A stretch of 64,000 nt of DNA from Marnyiella aurantia (GTDB taxonomy: Bacteria > Bacteroidota > Bacteroidia > Flavobacteriales > Weeksellaceae), in contig NZ_CP059472.1 of the NCBI RefSeq assembly GCF_014041915.1, positions 1,984,001 through 2,048,000 of the forward strand, written 5' to 3'. The notes beneath the pieces are model-generated. The model worked only from the letters and a program-made list of their open reading frames with translations, was not told where the DNA came from and did not search any database. Of the stretch, positions 48,048-51,870 are shown one piece after another. Position 1 is the stretch's first letter. Every line of letters starts with the position of its first letter. Made by a program: the position numbers and the translations under genes.

Positions 48048-48073
48048 CCGGGCCTGATAGTCCGGTTTTTTTT
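48048..48073 (+). terminator. Terminator after the SDR gene
   Basis: CCGGGC and GTCCGG pair (one G-T) around a 6-base loop, followed by T8. Confidence 0.8.
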
Positions 48074-48159: not shown

Positions 48160-48187
48160 TTGCATTCTTTAATTGTTTCTAATTTTG
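48160..48187 (+). promoter_or_regulatory. Promoter TTG-N17-TAATTTTG of the DUF2589-protease operon
   Basis: TTG (48160-48162), exactly 17 bases, then TAATTTTG (48180-48187): a full match to the Bacteroidota consensus TTG-N17-TAnnTTTG. It lies 25 bases before the first gene and after the preceding terminator, defining the start of the five-gene unit. Confidence 0.8.
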
Positions 48188-48212
48188 ATATTCAATCCTT
48201 AAAAATATCATC

Positions 48213-49106
48213 ATGGAAACTTTAAAATCAATTCTGGAAAAAGACCAGTCCAAAAAAACGAAATCAGAGTTAATTCAGTTGCTCACAGGCATAGAAAGTA
48301 TTGTGTCACCGGCAGTTTATGAAAAGATCAGTGGCTTAAGTCCCAGCGAACTTCAGGATTTACCGAAAAGAGATATTCTGGAGATCCTTAACAATTTTAA
48401 AGATGGCTATGATGCCAAATGGGAAAATGCTGTTGCTAATGTGTCATCCAGTGTTATGAGTGCCGTATTCGGCCAGTTAAGGGCAGATGACAATGCCTTT
48501 GCCGCGGCTGCAGTTTCGGACGGTAATTTTGCAGCGGAACTGGGAAGTATTGATTTTGCCAAGATAATCGGCGGTCCGTTGGACGCCTGCGTTTCCGCAC
48601 AGACTAACGCCTCAGTAAGTACGGTAAGTTTTATAAATGAGGTAGGGTTTGAAACTACTGCTGAAGGTAAGAAGTTACGGATGGCCGAATTTAAATACAA
48701 GAAAAATGTGGCCAATCCTGATTTTGATGAAGAGGAGGCTGAAAGTGATTCCAATCCGAAAACAATAGAGCAGGATGTTGAAATCACAGTTCCATTCATT
48801 GCACTGCTTAATGTACCTTCTTTTAGAATAGAAAGCTGTGATATTGACTTTAACGTAAAACTTAATTCAACTTTTACACAAAATACACAGACGGAATTTG
48901 GAATAAATACCGGTTTCAGTTCGGAATCTTCGGGTCTGGCGAATCTTTTTGCCAAAGTAAAATTTAAAGTCAACGTTTCCATGAAAAGGACCTCCAGTAC
49001 AGGAGTGAAGATTGAGAAAGAATATTCACTCGGCATAAAAGTACGGGCAACTAATGATGAAATGCCGGCTGGACTGGAAAAAGTACTTGGATTGCTGTCT
49101 AACTAG
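48213..49106 (+). CDS. DUF2589 protein
   Basis: A 297-residue cytoplasmic protein. The N-terminal ~90 residues are helical (a SAP-like KSELIQLLTGI then EKISGLSPSELQDLPKRDILEIL). The DUF2589 core starts near residue 115 (AELGSIDFAKIIGGPLDACVSAQ) and includes the beta-rich DVEITVPFIALLNVPSFRIE followed by DFNVKLNS. An acidic insert (FDEEEAESDSNP) lies between. The family has no established role. First gene of the unit, 11 bases before the next. Confidence 0.85.
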   Translation: METLKSILEKDQSKKTKSELIQLLTGIESIVSPAVYEKISGLSPSELQDLPKRDILEILNNFKDGYDAKWENAVANVSSSVMSAVFGQLRADDNAFAAAAVSDGNFAAELGSIDFAKIIGGPLDACVSAQTNASVSTVSFINEVGFETTAEGKKLRMAEFKYKKNVANPDFDEEEAESDSNPKTIEQDVEITVPFIALLNVPSFRIESCDIDFNVKLNSTFTQNTQTEFGINTGFSSESSGLANLFAKVKFKVNVSMKRTSSTGVKIEKEYSLGIKVRATNDEMPAGLEKVLGLLSN

Positions 49107-49117
49107 ATGATTCCGGA

Positions 49118-49810
49118 ATGATTAAATTATCAGATTATCTGGATTATTTGAATCAGGAAATTATTCAGGCTCGAAAAAAGGCTGATGAAAATGCTGTCCT
49201 GGTAGCGAAGCAATATGCACAGCACCCTTATCTTAAGTTTTTTAAGGTTCCGCGTTACTCCATACCGGTTATAAAAATGGATATACCGATTAAAGTTGCG
49301 GACATTGATGCCGATTCCAAATTTAATTTCAAGATCGATCCAAAACTGTTCATGGTAGAGGTCAATGAAAAAATTGCTTTGGTGAATAAGGAGAAAAACC
49401 TCAGCATCTCACCCATTACAGAGACTCAAACTAAGAATGATGATTTCAAATTGCTCTTTAAAACACTGGAGAACAAAGACCAGCGGTATATTAAGAACCT
49501 GAGCACTGTAATCAAGAAACTTGATTTGGCGCCGCAGATTAAATCTTTAAACCTCGAAATCTTTCGTCCGCAGGCCGACGAAGATGAGAATAATGAGCTG
49601 GCGCGCATTCTTTCAGAAACCATTGCAAGCAAATACACGCTTGTAGCTTCACGGCTGAATAACCTGTATATAGATCCTGATACCACAAAAGCGGAGGACA
49701 AGGACAGGATGTTCATTAACCTCCATGTGGAAATGGAAGAGGAAGGGTTGCGAATTGTAAAGTTTACGAATAAAGAGGGACAGGAAATTGAGGAGATAAC
49801 CTTTGAGTGA
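49118..49810 (+). CDS. Hypothetical beta-rich protein of the protease operon
   Basis: A 230-residue protein with an N-terminal helix (SDYLDYLNQEIIQARKKADENAVLVAKQY), then a strand-rich segment (FKVPRYSIPVIKMDIPIKVADID). Its alternating hydrophobics and Pro placement resemble the DUF2589 strands of the preceding gene, so a distant relationship is possible. Middle part helical, C-terminus acidic (MEEEGLRIVKF ... GQEIEEITFE). No named family recognised. Stop TGA shares a base with the next gene's ATG. Confidence 0.7.
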   Translation: MIKLSDYLDYLNQEIIQARKKADENAVLVAKQYAQHPYLKFFKVPRYSIPVIKMDIPIKVADIDADSKFNFKIDPKLFMVEVNEKIALVNKEKNLSISPITETQTKNDDFKLLFKTLENKDQRYIKNLSTVIKKLDLAPQIKSLNLEIFRPQADEDENNELARILSETIASKYTLVASRLNNLYIDPDTTKAEDKDRMFINLHVEMEEEGLRIVKFTNKEGQEIEEITFE

Positions 49811-50388
49811 TGCAGGATTTTATCCATAATAAAGTAAAGCTTGCGGAAGAAATGCTGGTCCAGTTCAATCAGGTTCAGCGTCTGTATGCCCAGCGGGCTT
49901 ATGAATTTGACCAAAATTTTGATGATTTCATGAAAGTGCTGCTGCTGCATTATACTCAAAGTGGTGATACCACATCCGAATCAGAGATTCTGCGCCTTTC
50001 CAACTCTGTATCACTGGTGAAAAAAGGTTTTAACCCGCTGAAGATGGAGAAAATCACATCGGGAAGGCGTGAGTATTACTTTGGTTTCACATTTTCTGCC
50101 ATGGAAAGTATACATGCGTTGCTTACCGAGGAGTTCACTCTTCAAATGAAAAAACTGGATGATGCTGCGGAACTTATCTCCAACCTCATCCTGAGTATGC
50201 ATCAAAATGGAATACTGACTGATAAAAAAATAAAGAATCTAAACTCGGTTGCCAAAATTGAAGCATTCTGGAACAGTATGGTAAATCAGAATGAATCCGT
50301 TTCCAGCATTTACAAAAAACTTCGGTTAACCCTTATTTCAGAAGATATTTACCTGCTTACAGAAAAAATTCTTCTGAAGATAATTTAA
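49810..50388 (+). CDS. Hypothetical all-helical protein of the protease operon
   Basis: A 192-residue protein predicted to be entirely helical. I choose the ATG at 49810 over the GTG at 49807 because it forms the coupled TGATG junction with the upstream stop. Segments such as EEMLVQFNQVQRLYAQRAYEF and EEFTLQMKKLDDAAELISNL look amphipathic. No signal peptide, no catalytic motif, no recognised family. It may be a scaffold, adaptor or substrate in the same pathway as the protease. Confidence 0.68.
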   Translation: MQDFIHNKVKLAEEMLVQFNQVQRLYAQRAYEFDQNFDDFMKVLLLHYTQSGDTTSESEILRLSNSVSLVKKGFNPLKMEKITSGRREYYFGFTFSAMESIHALLTEEFTLQMKKLDDAAELISNLILSMHQNGILTDKKIKNLNSVAKIEAFWNSMVNQNESVSSIYKKLRLTLISEDIYLLTEKILLKII

Positions 50389-50396
50389 TAACTCAC

Positions 50397-51656
50397 ATGG
50401 AAAATAAAAAGTTTCTTGTGCTGCTTCAGGACCAAAACGCTTCCGCACTCAAAAAGGTGGAACGTGAATTCAAGGTCAGTTTGACCTCGTCGGAAGAGTT
50501 GTCATCTACCAACAAATCTTATAATATCATAAATGCCAATAACGGTGTAGTGTACAAGAATCTTGGTGTGGCAGTAATGGATGAAGTGGATATGGACCAA
50601 TTGAAATCTGCGGTGAACAATGACCGGAGTCCGGTGGTATATTTCGAAGAAGAGAGGGATTTTTTCGCGGTAAATGAAATGAACCTTATAAATGATCTGA
50701 AGGTTAAAGCAGCTGAACTGAGTTCTATGGTCGCGGAACTTGAGAACTTTCTAATCAAAAAGCCACTTGTTCAGGAAGCCCTAACGGAAATGGAATGGGG
50801 ACTTAAGGCAATCGGTATAGACCGTGCTCAGTTTACCGGCAAGGGAATTGACCTTTGTATTCTGGATACAGGATTTGCCCTGTCTCACCCGGACTTTGCA
50901 GACCGCGATATTGTAGGGAAATCATTTGTGCCGGATGAGGTTTGGGAAAAGGATCCCTATGGTCATGGCACACACTGTGCGGGAACGGCTGCGGGAAATG
51001 TACGAAGTGATACCGGAAAGCGATATGGAATTGCCAAAGATTGTAATTTGAAGATCGGCAAGGTGCTAAGCAATAAGGGAAAGGGTACAACTTCCGGCAT
51101 CATTGACGCTATAGATTGGGCACTTGAACATAAATTCAGGATTATTTCCATGTCATTGGCCTCACCTGTCAAGCTTAATGAAAAACCGTCAGCAATTTTT
51201 GAGGCGGTTGGCCGCAAAGCAATGGAAAATAACTGCCTCCTAATTGCCGCGGCGGGGAATGACAGTAAAAGACCTGCGGTTCCGGCACCCGTGGCGTCAC
51301 CTGCTAACTGCGGGTCTATAATGTCTGTAGCGGCAATCGACAGTCAAATGCACATTGCCAACTTTTCCAATGGCGGAATAAATTCTGCCCATGGTGGTAA
51401 TATCAATGTCTGTGCACCTGGTGTCGATATTTTGAGCGCGCGGCCTGTAAAGGAAGGAGCTAATTCCTTATATACTCTGATGAAAGGTACAAGTATGGCT
51501 GCTCCGCATGTTGCTGGCCTTGCCGCTCTTTATATGGAAAAATTCCCCGATTTAAGAGCTGACAAAATATGGGAGTTACTTGAAAGTACTGCGAAGGCAA
51601 TCCAGAATCTTAAATACCGCGATATCGGCAGCGGCTTAGTTCAGTTTGTACCTTAA
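50397..51656 (+). CDS. Cytoplasmic S8 subtilisin-like protease
   Basis: A 419-residue subtilase without a signal peptide or sorting domain. Residues 1-95 have the strand-helix-strand order of an I9-type prodomain (KKFLVLLQDQ, a helix, then VVYKNLGVAVM). The catalytic set is complete: Asp157 (LDTGF), His190 (YGHGTHCAG), Asn288 (AAAGND) and Ser366 (GTSMAAPHVAG). Since it seems to stay inside the cell, its activity must be controlled, and a possible inhibitor is encoded right after it. A protease at the end of an operon of structural-looking proteins suggests processing of an operon partner. Confidence 0.9.
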   Translation: MENKKFLVLLQDQNASALKKVEREFKVSLTSSEELSSTNKSYNIINANNGVVYKNLGVAVMDEVDMDQLKSAVNNDRSPVVYFEEERDFFAVNEMNLINDLKVKAAELSSMVAELENFLIKKPLVQEALTEMEWGLKAIGIDRAQFTGKGIDLCILDTGFALSHPDFADRDIVGKSFVPDEVWEKDPYGHGTHCAGTAAGNVRSDTGKRYGIAKDCNLKIGKVLSNKGKGTTSGIIDAIDWALEHKFRIISMSLASPVKLNEKPSAIFEAVGRKAMENNCLLIAAAGNDSKRPAVPAPVASPANCGSIMSVAAIDSQMHIANFSNGGINSAHGGNINVCAPGVDILSARPVKEGANSLYTLMKGTSMAAPHVAGLAALYMEKFPDLRADKIWELLESTAKAIQNLKYRDIGSGLVQFVP

Positions 51657-51660
51657 ATCA

Positions 51661-51870
51661 ATGAAAACCTATCTTGCCATACTCAAATCAAATTTCGACC
51701 TTCCGGATGTGAAAAAAAAGCTCATTGAGGAAGGTATGGAATTCGTGAAGTTCTATCCTAAACTAAAAATGGTTAAAATTAAAAGTGACGCAAACCCTAC
51801 GAAATCCTGCAGTGATATCTTCGACTATGTGGAAAAGGAGAAGGATGACTTCTCTGCCGGGAACCCGTAG
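51661..51870 (+). CDS. Small I9-inhibitor-like protein
   Basis: Sixty-nine residues from the ATG at 51661, four bases after the protease stop; the longer frame starting inside the protease gene is unlikely. The secondary-structure order looks like strand (TYLAILKS), helix (DLPDVKKKLIEEG), two strands (EFVKFYPKLKMVKIKSD) and helix (CSDIFDYVEKEKDDF). This is the pattern of subtilisin propeptides and stand-alone I9 inhibitors, and it resembles the first 95 residues of the neighbouring protease. Role as inhibitor or folding helper is inferred. Confidence 0.65.
   Translation: MKTYLAILKSNFDLPDVKKKLIEEGMEFVKFYPKLKMVKIKSDANPTKSCSDIFDYVEKEKDDFSAGNP

Follow-up and report, generated by a model that had tools for sequence, protein, structure and literature searches.

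The window analyzed here is a stretch of 64,000 nucleotides from Marnyiella aurantia (contig NZ_CP059472.1), and all positions are counted from its first letter. We examined a co-directional block of five genes on its + strand (48213 to 51870), referred to as A, B, C, S8 (a subtilase), and E, which an earlier sequence-only reading had described as a compact operon resembling a proteolytically triggered device. A is the one DUF2589 gene of this genome. The features are as follows.

48048-48065, + strand: terminator-like hairpin with a T run, located after the upstream gene and before the operon; weak (a consensus scan found 4, with a shuffle mean of 4.0)
48160-48187, + strand: promoter-like element TTG-N17-TAATTTTG, 25 bases 5' of the A start codon, read directly in the sequence
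48213-49106, + strand: gene A, 297 amino acids (aa); DUF2589 (PF11655), E value 6e-28, 98.5 bits, residues 116-295
48213-48524, + strand: extension of A, helical, residues 1 to about 104; the DUF2589 core is residues about 105-297
48492-48533, + strand: linker of A, residues 94-107, with a predicted local distance difference test score (pLDDT) below 50 at residues 94-103; putative cleavage region
49118-49810, + strand: gene B, 230 aa; no named family; present in 131 of 151 DUF2589 loci (jackhmmer, alignment)
49810-50388, + strand: gene C, 192 aa; no named family; present in 124 of 151 DUF2589 loci (jackhmmer)
50397-51656, + strand: gene S8, subtilase, 419 aa; PF00082, E value 4e-50; triad D157/H190/S366; putative propeptide-like segment at residues about 1-90 and catalytic domain at about 137-417
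51661-51870, + strand: gene E, 69 aa; predicted stand-alone propeptide (I9)-type fold, predicted inhibitor of S8

The descriptive part of the sequence-only reading held. The Bacteroidota-type promoter that it named is present, the assignment of A to DUF2589 far exceeds the curated cutoff (23 bits), and the genes are as tightly spaced as claimed, with gaps of 11, -1, 8, and 4 bases. The overlap of B and C lies in a TGATG junction (49808-49812), and a one-base overlap recurs in 57 of the 69 loci with all five genes (some loci being counted twice). The catalytic triad of S8 is intact, since D157, H190, and S366 are invariant across a 20-row alignment that includes the window row; PF00082 matches at 171.2 bits against a cutoff of 21.8, and the closest solved relatives are subtilisins. 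The protease had also been called non-exported. A hydropathy screen, which is a simple scan and not a trained predictor, showed no signal peptide or membrane segment in any of the five proteins (19-residue mean maxima of 1.18 for A, 0.67 for B, 1.0 for C, 1.04 for S8 at residue 296, and 0.17 for E), and S8 seems to be cytoplasmic.

Conservation was assessed over 151 loci (L031-L180 and the window, some counted twice; the 30 short loci L001-L030 were left out). The A extension was present in 74 loci, with S8 in 72 of these and E, by search, in 69. The two extension loci lacking S8 (L090 and L137) lie on contigs that stop no more than 70 bases past the B frame, and the S8-bearing loci in which E was not found by search comprise one that ends inside S8 (L096), one with an E-like frame and a non-ATG start (L132), and one with S8 in pieces (L128). 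In the 77 loci lacking the extension, neither S8 nor E was present within the locus DNA examined. Counted as distinct A sequences, 57 had both extension and S8, 2 were truncated, and 72 had neither. Five-gene carriers include Chryseobacterium, Kaistella, Tenacibaculum, Leeuwenhoekiella, Petrimonas, Paludibacter, and Saprospiraceae, so that the set spans Weeksellaceae, Flavobacteriaceae, Bacteroidales, and Saprospiraceae with gene order and spacing kept; in Proteiniphilum and a Cytophagales metagenome-assembled genome (MAG), only A and B precede the contig end. The operon is thus genuine and conserved, and neither finding that would have counted against the sequence-only reading was obtained: the genes stay together across several Bacteroidota orders, and the protease showed no export signal in the simple scan. 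That reading had also suggested looking for adjacency of DUF2589 to S8 and E in Proteobacteria; none of 10 Pseudomonadota DUF2589 loci examined (L140-L144, L146, L155, L166, L168, and L170) had S8 or E. The DUF2589-S8 pairing is not general to DUF2589. As side observations, S8 is split into two frames in L098 and four in L128, possibly through real decay or sequencing error.

DUF2589 itself is patchily distributed, with bearers making up 37 of 197 genomes sampled from the family, 34 of 395 from the order, 14 of 395 from the class, and 28 of 395 from the phylum (overlapping draws). In a species-genome collection, a profile scan confirmed 274 relatives, and the 80 best were retained. In a quick-search tree of 58 A cores (motif-less sequences, those with <140 residues after the motif, and near-copies were left out), the extension form of A was one clade with a single origin (Shimodaira-Hasegawa-like approximate likelihood ratio test [SH-aLRT] value of 94, not starred; long branches flagged), which joined the clade of L155, L159, and L161 as its sister (SH-aLRT 86, not starred). 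Inside the extension clade, Bacteroidales rows were intermixed with Weeksellaceae rows (branches of 80 to 92), and the A nearest to that of the window was from Chryseobacterium sp. MFBS3-17 (81% over 182 columns), pointing to Weeksellaceae as the group of the window genome. Between the window and Petrimonas (L094), A cores were 73% and S8 catalytic parts 72% identical, and ribosomal proteins L9 and S18 were 40% and 65% identical. The simplest reading is a transfer of the whole set between orders, strong constraint being the alternative. Identities also ran parallel over 16 loci, with correlations (r) to the S8 catalytic part of 0.91 for C and 0.89 for the A extension.

The strict linkage of S8 to the A extension across several orders weighs against a rival explanation in which S8 is an ordinary intracellular subtilisin, E is its inhibitor, and the two lie behind A-B-C by chance. 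Intracellular subtilisins with inhibitors are known, and in Bacillus the inhibitor is encoded away from its protease (as given in the portion of PMC3901451 available to us). General intracellular proteolysis appears to us the most improbable of the explanations weighed here, given the linkage and this difference in gene placement.

The smallest protein, E, had been called I9-like. Its AlphaFold2 model (pLDDT 89) has strands at residues 2-8, 27-32, 37-42, and 54-59 and helices at residues 14-23 and 46-49, a beta-alpha-beta-beta-alpha-beta arrangement with a short free tail. In VIA-align, ranks 1 to 13 were all subtilisin or Tk-subtilisin propeptides, POIA1, or a proprotein convertase prodomain, led by 1scj_B (Z 8.8, root mean square deviation of 2.1, 66 aligned residues); the first unrelated row had a Z of 7.2, so that the top rows alone exceed it by more than 1, and ranks below about Z 8.2 were tied with unrelated rows. 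Because the propeptide fold class is common, it is this uniform top block, and not Z alone, that is the evidence for the predicted fold. Foldseek gave nothing below an E value of 0.001, its top two rows being an unrelated peptide-exporter domain (0.03) followed by propeptides (0.036 and 0.041). By sequence profile, E matched no Pfam family at E values up to 10, and none of the 5 PDB sequences matched up to that value was a propeptide. The I9 likeness therefore stands for the predicted fold and not for sequence profiles, and the related suggestion of a dedicated inhibitor gains structural support, with inhibition itself a prediction from the model. Protein E also aligned over its full length with the S8 N terminus, weakly (E value of 0.0016, probability of 16%); residues 1-100 of S8 were unmatched by the Inhibitor_I9 profile and gave two unrelated weak Pfam matches. 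E is the fastest-evolving part of the set (mean identity of 29% versus 64% for the S8 catalytic part, 16 loci).

In A, the extension is modeled as a confident helical domain (AlphaFold2; block pLDDT means of 86 to 95 over residues 1-70), and the core is unsettled (mean pLDDT 66; residues 216-284 below 50). Short A proteins mostly start at the equivalent of residue ~104 of the window protein, where the extension stops. Hydropathy alternates strongly in the core at residues 184-222 and 216-284 (as high in none of 2,000 shuffles), and serine, threonine, glycine, and asparagine account for 37% of residues 216-284; this stretch is compatible with strands belonging to either a complex or a barrel and favors neither. 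Fold searches with the A model returned at best a Foldseek E value of 1.0 and, in VIA-align, a Z of 5.0 for unrelated helical domains on residues 1-69. Death-fold rows were at noise level, and gasdermin was absent from the fold rows shown for A, whose core model has low confidence. Sequence searches gave no convincing solved relatives of A, B, or E.

An export signal in A was considered separately. On the Vibrio sp. 16 plasmid pVDT1 (L170), a C39-peptidase ABC exporter and an HlyD-type adaptor are encoded near a pair of DUF2589 genes, and this exporter suggested that the IGGP motif of A might be a double-glycine leader. Proline directly after a Gly-Gly pair is unsuited to leader cleavage. The idea was rejected because the proline is kept more than the glycines among 159 aligned A-type stretches (proline in 149, GGP in 127).

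One locus carries a different protease at the same place. In L159, from a Chitinophagaceae MAG, A-B-C is followed by a papain family protease (Peptidase_C1, E value of 1.1e-16) and a chagasin-type inhibitor (Inhibitor_I42, E value of 2.6e-12). This single locus shows that the slot behind A-B-C is open to a different class of protease together with the inhibitor class that matches it, which makes E more likely as the partner of S8. The A protein of L159, from the sister clade of the extension form, has an N-terminal tail unlike the window extension. No relatives of its C1 and I42 genes were found at the other loci examined, including L155 and L161 of the same clade. On the 5' side of A-B-C, L159 also encodes a DUF6345 protein (L159:6040-7689) with caspase-like His and Cys motifs recognized by eye.

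We tentatively favor, with a little less than even confidence, a self-contained cytoplasmic protease switch in which both E and a propeptide-like segment of S8 itself hold the protease in check, with A as its client. S8 would be made inactive by its N-terminal segment, and E, from the last gene, would restrain the mature protease in trans. S8 would then cut the A linker near residues 94-107, freeing a DUF2589 core equal to the short A proteins, and the freed core together with B and C might act as an effector or assemble. A is the probable target because its extra front domain exists only alongside S8, and it is favored as substrate because the product of a cut in the linker would equal the short A proteins. 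Such a switch is consistent with the co-occurrence of extension and S8, the kept order and spacing, the predicted fold of E and its weak alignment with the S8 N terminus, the parallel identities, the L159 pair, the A cores found without a protease, and published cases of operon proteases that activate a neighbor (PMC12799240 and PMC9612521). The "proteolytically triggered device" of the sequence-only reading is accordingly the best fit, strengthened by the restriction of the extension to S8 loci and by the protease-inhibitor pair of L159; the roles that it offered (defense, cell death control, or assembly) drew no support, PADLOC matching S8 alone.

Several points weigh against this switch. 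We infer cleavage, binding, and inhibition, and likewise the release of an active core and any downstream effect. On the A tree, extension and S8 have a single joint origin, so their co-occurrence is one long-kept event rather than repeated gain. L155 and L161, from the clade of L159, carry another A tail, and neither S8 nor C1/I42 relatives were found there. Plain linkage would likewise produce parallel divergence, and the extension might serve in docking or assembly instead of as a substrate. No fold supports an effector role, since the A core model is of low confidence.

An outside signal may regulate four Bacteroidales loci (L089, L092, L094, and L103), since a regulator-type gene of 789 to 971 aa lies just upstream of A in each; the copy at L094 is a hybrid with TPR, HisKA, HATPase, receiver, and AraC helix-turn-helix (HTH) domains. 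A gene of 121 to 123 aa lies downstream of E in L089, L092, L094, and L139, and its L094 copy is an AraC-type HTH protein. In one set of 18 five-gene loci, the window included, an SDR-like gene (named by eye) is upstream in 16, and ribosomal S18 and L9 genes, as recognized by eye, adjoin three Bacteroidales loci.

As B and C accompany A with or without the protease, they are likely to be its partners. B had no match in Pfam or NCBIfam, and C had two Pfam matches, both below the cutoff. That B may be a diverged relative of DUF2589, as had been suggested, was not established, with profile comparisons giving E values of 0.061, 0.022, and 0.013 and probabilities of 0.9 to 3.4%. In PHROGs, protease and unknown-function models matched S8, and matches to the other four proteins were noise.

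Because A-B-C is a conserved set without S8 in 52 loci, processing for assembly has to be weighed: A, B, and C would build a filament, shell, or scaffold, the extension would prevent or guide assembly, S8 would be a maturation protease, and E would protect the cell, with no death or lysis involved. The alternating hydropathy of the A core and its poor monomer model are as expected of strands completed in a complex. At L147 of Chryseobacterium (L147:4810-10011), A-B-C is followed by a 481-aa protein, matched over about 50 to 60 residues by phage tail, peptidase, and head-decoration profiles, and by a 1,246-aa protein without a match. However, no structural protein homologue of A, B, or C was found (Pfam, NCBIfam, PHROGs, and sequences of solved structures), and lysozyme neighbors elsewhere suit a lytic or membrane role at least equally. 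We regard assembly processing as rather unlikely. Similarly large genes follow A-B-C in L046, L047, and L051.

The lysozyme neighbors were counted in 14 chosen genomes with multiple DUF2589 genes (not all such genomes) and for two families only. Of 14 GH25 lysozyme genes, 5 lay within 1.4 kb of a DUF2589 cluster (G527, G094, G062, G806, and G884), as did 1 of 4 PF11860 muramidases (G870), a closeness that is rare by chance in genomes of 2.6 to 6.9 Mb. Both families were tested after having been seen beside DUF2589 in most of the six positive genomes; G094 and G062 belong to the same family, the G884 gene is on the opposite strand, and 6 of the 12 genomes holding either family have none nearby. 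Other DUF2589 neighbors were an M15/VanY peptidase with a patatin (Chryseobacterium), a CHAP protein, a phage lysozyme, and a below-cutoff Tox-HDC match; the CHAP, M15 with patatin, C1, and phage lysozyme neighbors are single observations or come from one lineage.

These neighbors are the ground for a lysis or permeabilization explanation, in which DUF2589 proteins would give enzymes access to the cell wall or membrane, with a holin-like effect, and the protease would gate this in the window variant. The serine, threonine, glycine, and asparagine content of the alternating stretch of A is compatible with such a role. Against it stand the way in which the two families were chosen and their absence near DUF2589 in half of the genomes holding them, and no membrane segment was seen in A, B, or C in the simple scan. 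No lysozyme or other cell wall hydrolase was noted beside the window variant, nor, by eye, a lysozyme at the A-B-C loci of Tenacibaculum and Flavobacterium. The GH25 proteins at L039 and L044 begin with a hydrophobic stretch, so not all of the enzyme partners lack an export signal. We judge lysis or permeabilization unlikely. A broader conjecture, which we hold to be distinctly unlikely, is that DUF2589 proteins form a new family of effectors that perforate membranes or open the envelope and that recruit enzymes interchangeably, with lysozymes used in several lineages and here a protease-inhibitor pair that gates the effector by removing an N-terminal lid, analogous but unrelated to gasdermins.

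Further DUF2589 loci differ in arrangement. Tandem clusters (L039, L044, L071, L084, L171, L174, and L177) hold three distinct DUF2589 types, of which the short third type is a clear relative of A (profile comparison E value of 3e-16), and they add a 65- to 75-aa protein with two CxxC pairs (zinc ribbon-like by eye); GH25 adjoins in some. On the minus strand, L084:9165-9722 gave a weak, below-cutoff Peptidase_C58 match (E value of 0.008). In L145, L148-L151, L153, L154, L157, L158, and L160 of Tenacibaculum and Flavobacterium, A-B-C is divergent from a kinase-bearing unit comprising a small family without a Pfam match, a membrane protein (by eye), a HisKA_3 kinase (L145), and a response regulator cluster gene. 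Short DUF2589-related genes of Archaeoglobus fulgidus (AF0414-AF0417) are described as up-regulated on lactate in the part of PMC3949148 available to us.

As for expression of the operon, 47 of 61 distinct upstream regions had a -7 box (TAnnTTTG) no farther than 150 bases upstream, whereas shuffled sequences would give 6.7. Conservation of the full TTG-N16-20-TAnnTTTG form was not found; it occurred in 1 of the 61 regions (the window's own), against 0.6 expected, and twice across the whole window.

The layout of a protease beside a candidate proenzyme in one operon is a known defense layout (PMC12799240 and PMC9612521, in the parts available), and anti-phage defense by an abortive infection system like the bacterial gasdermin-protease pairs was considered for this reason. 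The set has probably moved between orders, and DUF2589 is patchy in the family, both of which suit such a system. However, PADLOC 2.0.0 gave protease models for S8 only (PDLC03014 subtilase, E value of 2e-27; PDLC02198 and PDLC02197 IetS, E value of 7e-9), with no match to A, B, C, or E at E values up to 1, and the five proteins yielded no known anti-phage component beyond these models. The SDR-like, S18, and L9 neighbors indicate fixed chromosomal places with no visible defense island (none was systematically searched for). Of 2.9 million viral contigs, 1 matched, as did 1 of 50,697 phage records and 5 plasmid records, the plasmid and phage collections having been queried with a short A. We consider a defense role very unlikely.

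No function of DUF2589 or PF11655 was found in the open-license papers searched, where DUF2589 had one passing mention and PF11655 none, and the five-gene combination was likewise not found there, in agreement with the sequence-only reading that the set is undescribed. DUF2589 occurs in several phyla, and this operon offers a concrete handle on it in the form of a protease with an inhibitor-fold partner and an extension whose presence follows that of the protease. The protease switch, if true, would add another lineage of bacterial protease-gated switches and hint at the role of DUF2589 beside lysozymes elsewhere.

Among known systems, the nearest in layout are operons in which caspase-like and other proteases activate neighboring gasdermins (PMC9612521, in the part available) or are paired with gated nucleases (PMC12799240, likewise). 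The gasdermin-protease and nuclease-protease pairs (Hachiman, AVAST, and canu) resemble this operon in encoding a protease with a candidate proenzyme and in proteolytic gating, as proposed here. In contrast to them, A, B, and C have no gasdermin or nuclease match, and an inhibitor-fold protein is also encoded.

The tails of subtilase propeptides enter the protease active site just after the last strand. E resembles POIA1 and the I9 propeptide inhibitors in predicted fold and size and likewise ends shortly after its last strand; it differs in lacking a Pfam match and in being encoded with an apparently cytoplasmic S8. The Isp1/IPI pair of Bacillus also combines a cytoplasmic S8 protease with a protein inhibitor, the latter predicted here, but IPI has an Ig-like fold, its gene lies apart from that of the protease, and the Isp1 propeptide has 18 residues (PMC3901451, in the portion available).

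QhpE-type subtilases remove the leader of a protein from their own operon. The likeness would be an S8 protease that acts intracellularly on a product of its own operon; the S8 of the window, however, matched the QhpE-type model NF049966 at 41.5 bits against a cutoff of 165, and no quinohemoprotein gene is among the five. All NCBIfam matches to S8 fell below their cutoffs, including that to the type VII secretion system mycosins (TIGR03921, 148.4 bits against 278.75), to which S8 is therefore not assigned.

Finally, Tc toxins are released through holin-endolysin cassettes (type 10 secretion; PMC10847048, in the part available). DUF2589 loci elsewhere resemble these in holding lysozyme-like enzymes and, in L066, a gene for a Tc-type B component: there (L066:2622-6815), A-B-C without a protease precedes an intact SpvB and TcdB-mid gene related to Tc toxin B components. 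The set differs in having no holin-like membrane protein in the simple scan and, in the window variant, no cell wall hydrolase neighbor noted, so that Tc holin-endolysin release is relevant solely as a possible parallel for the lysozyme-bearing DUF2589 loci.

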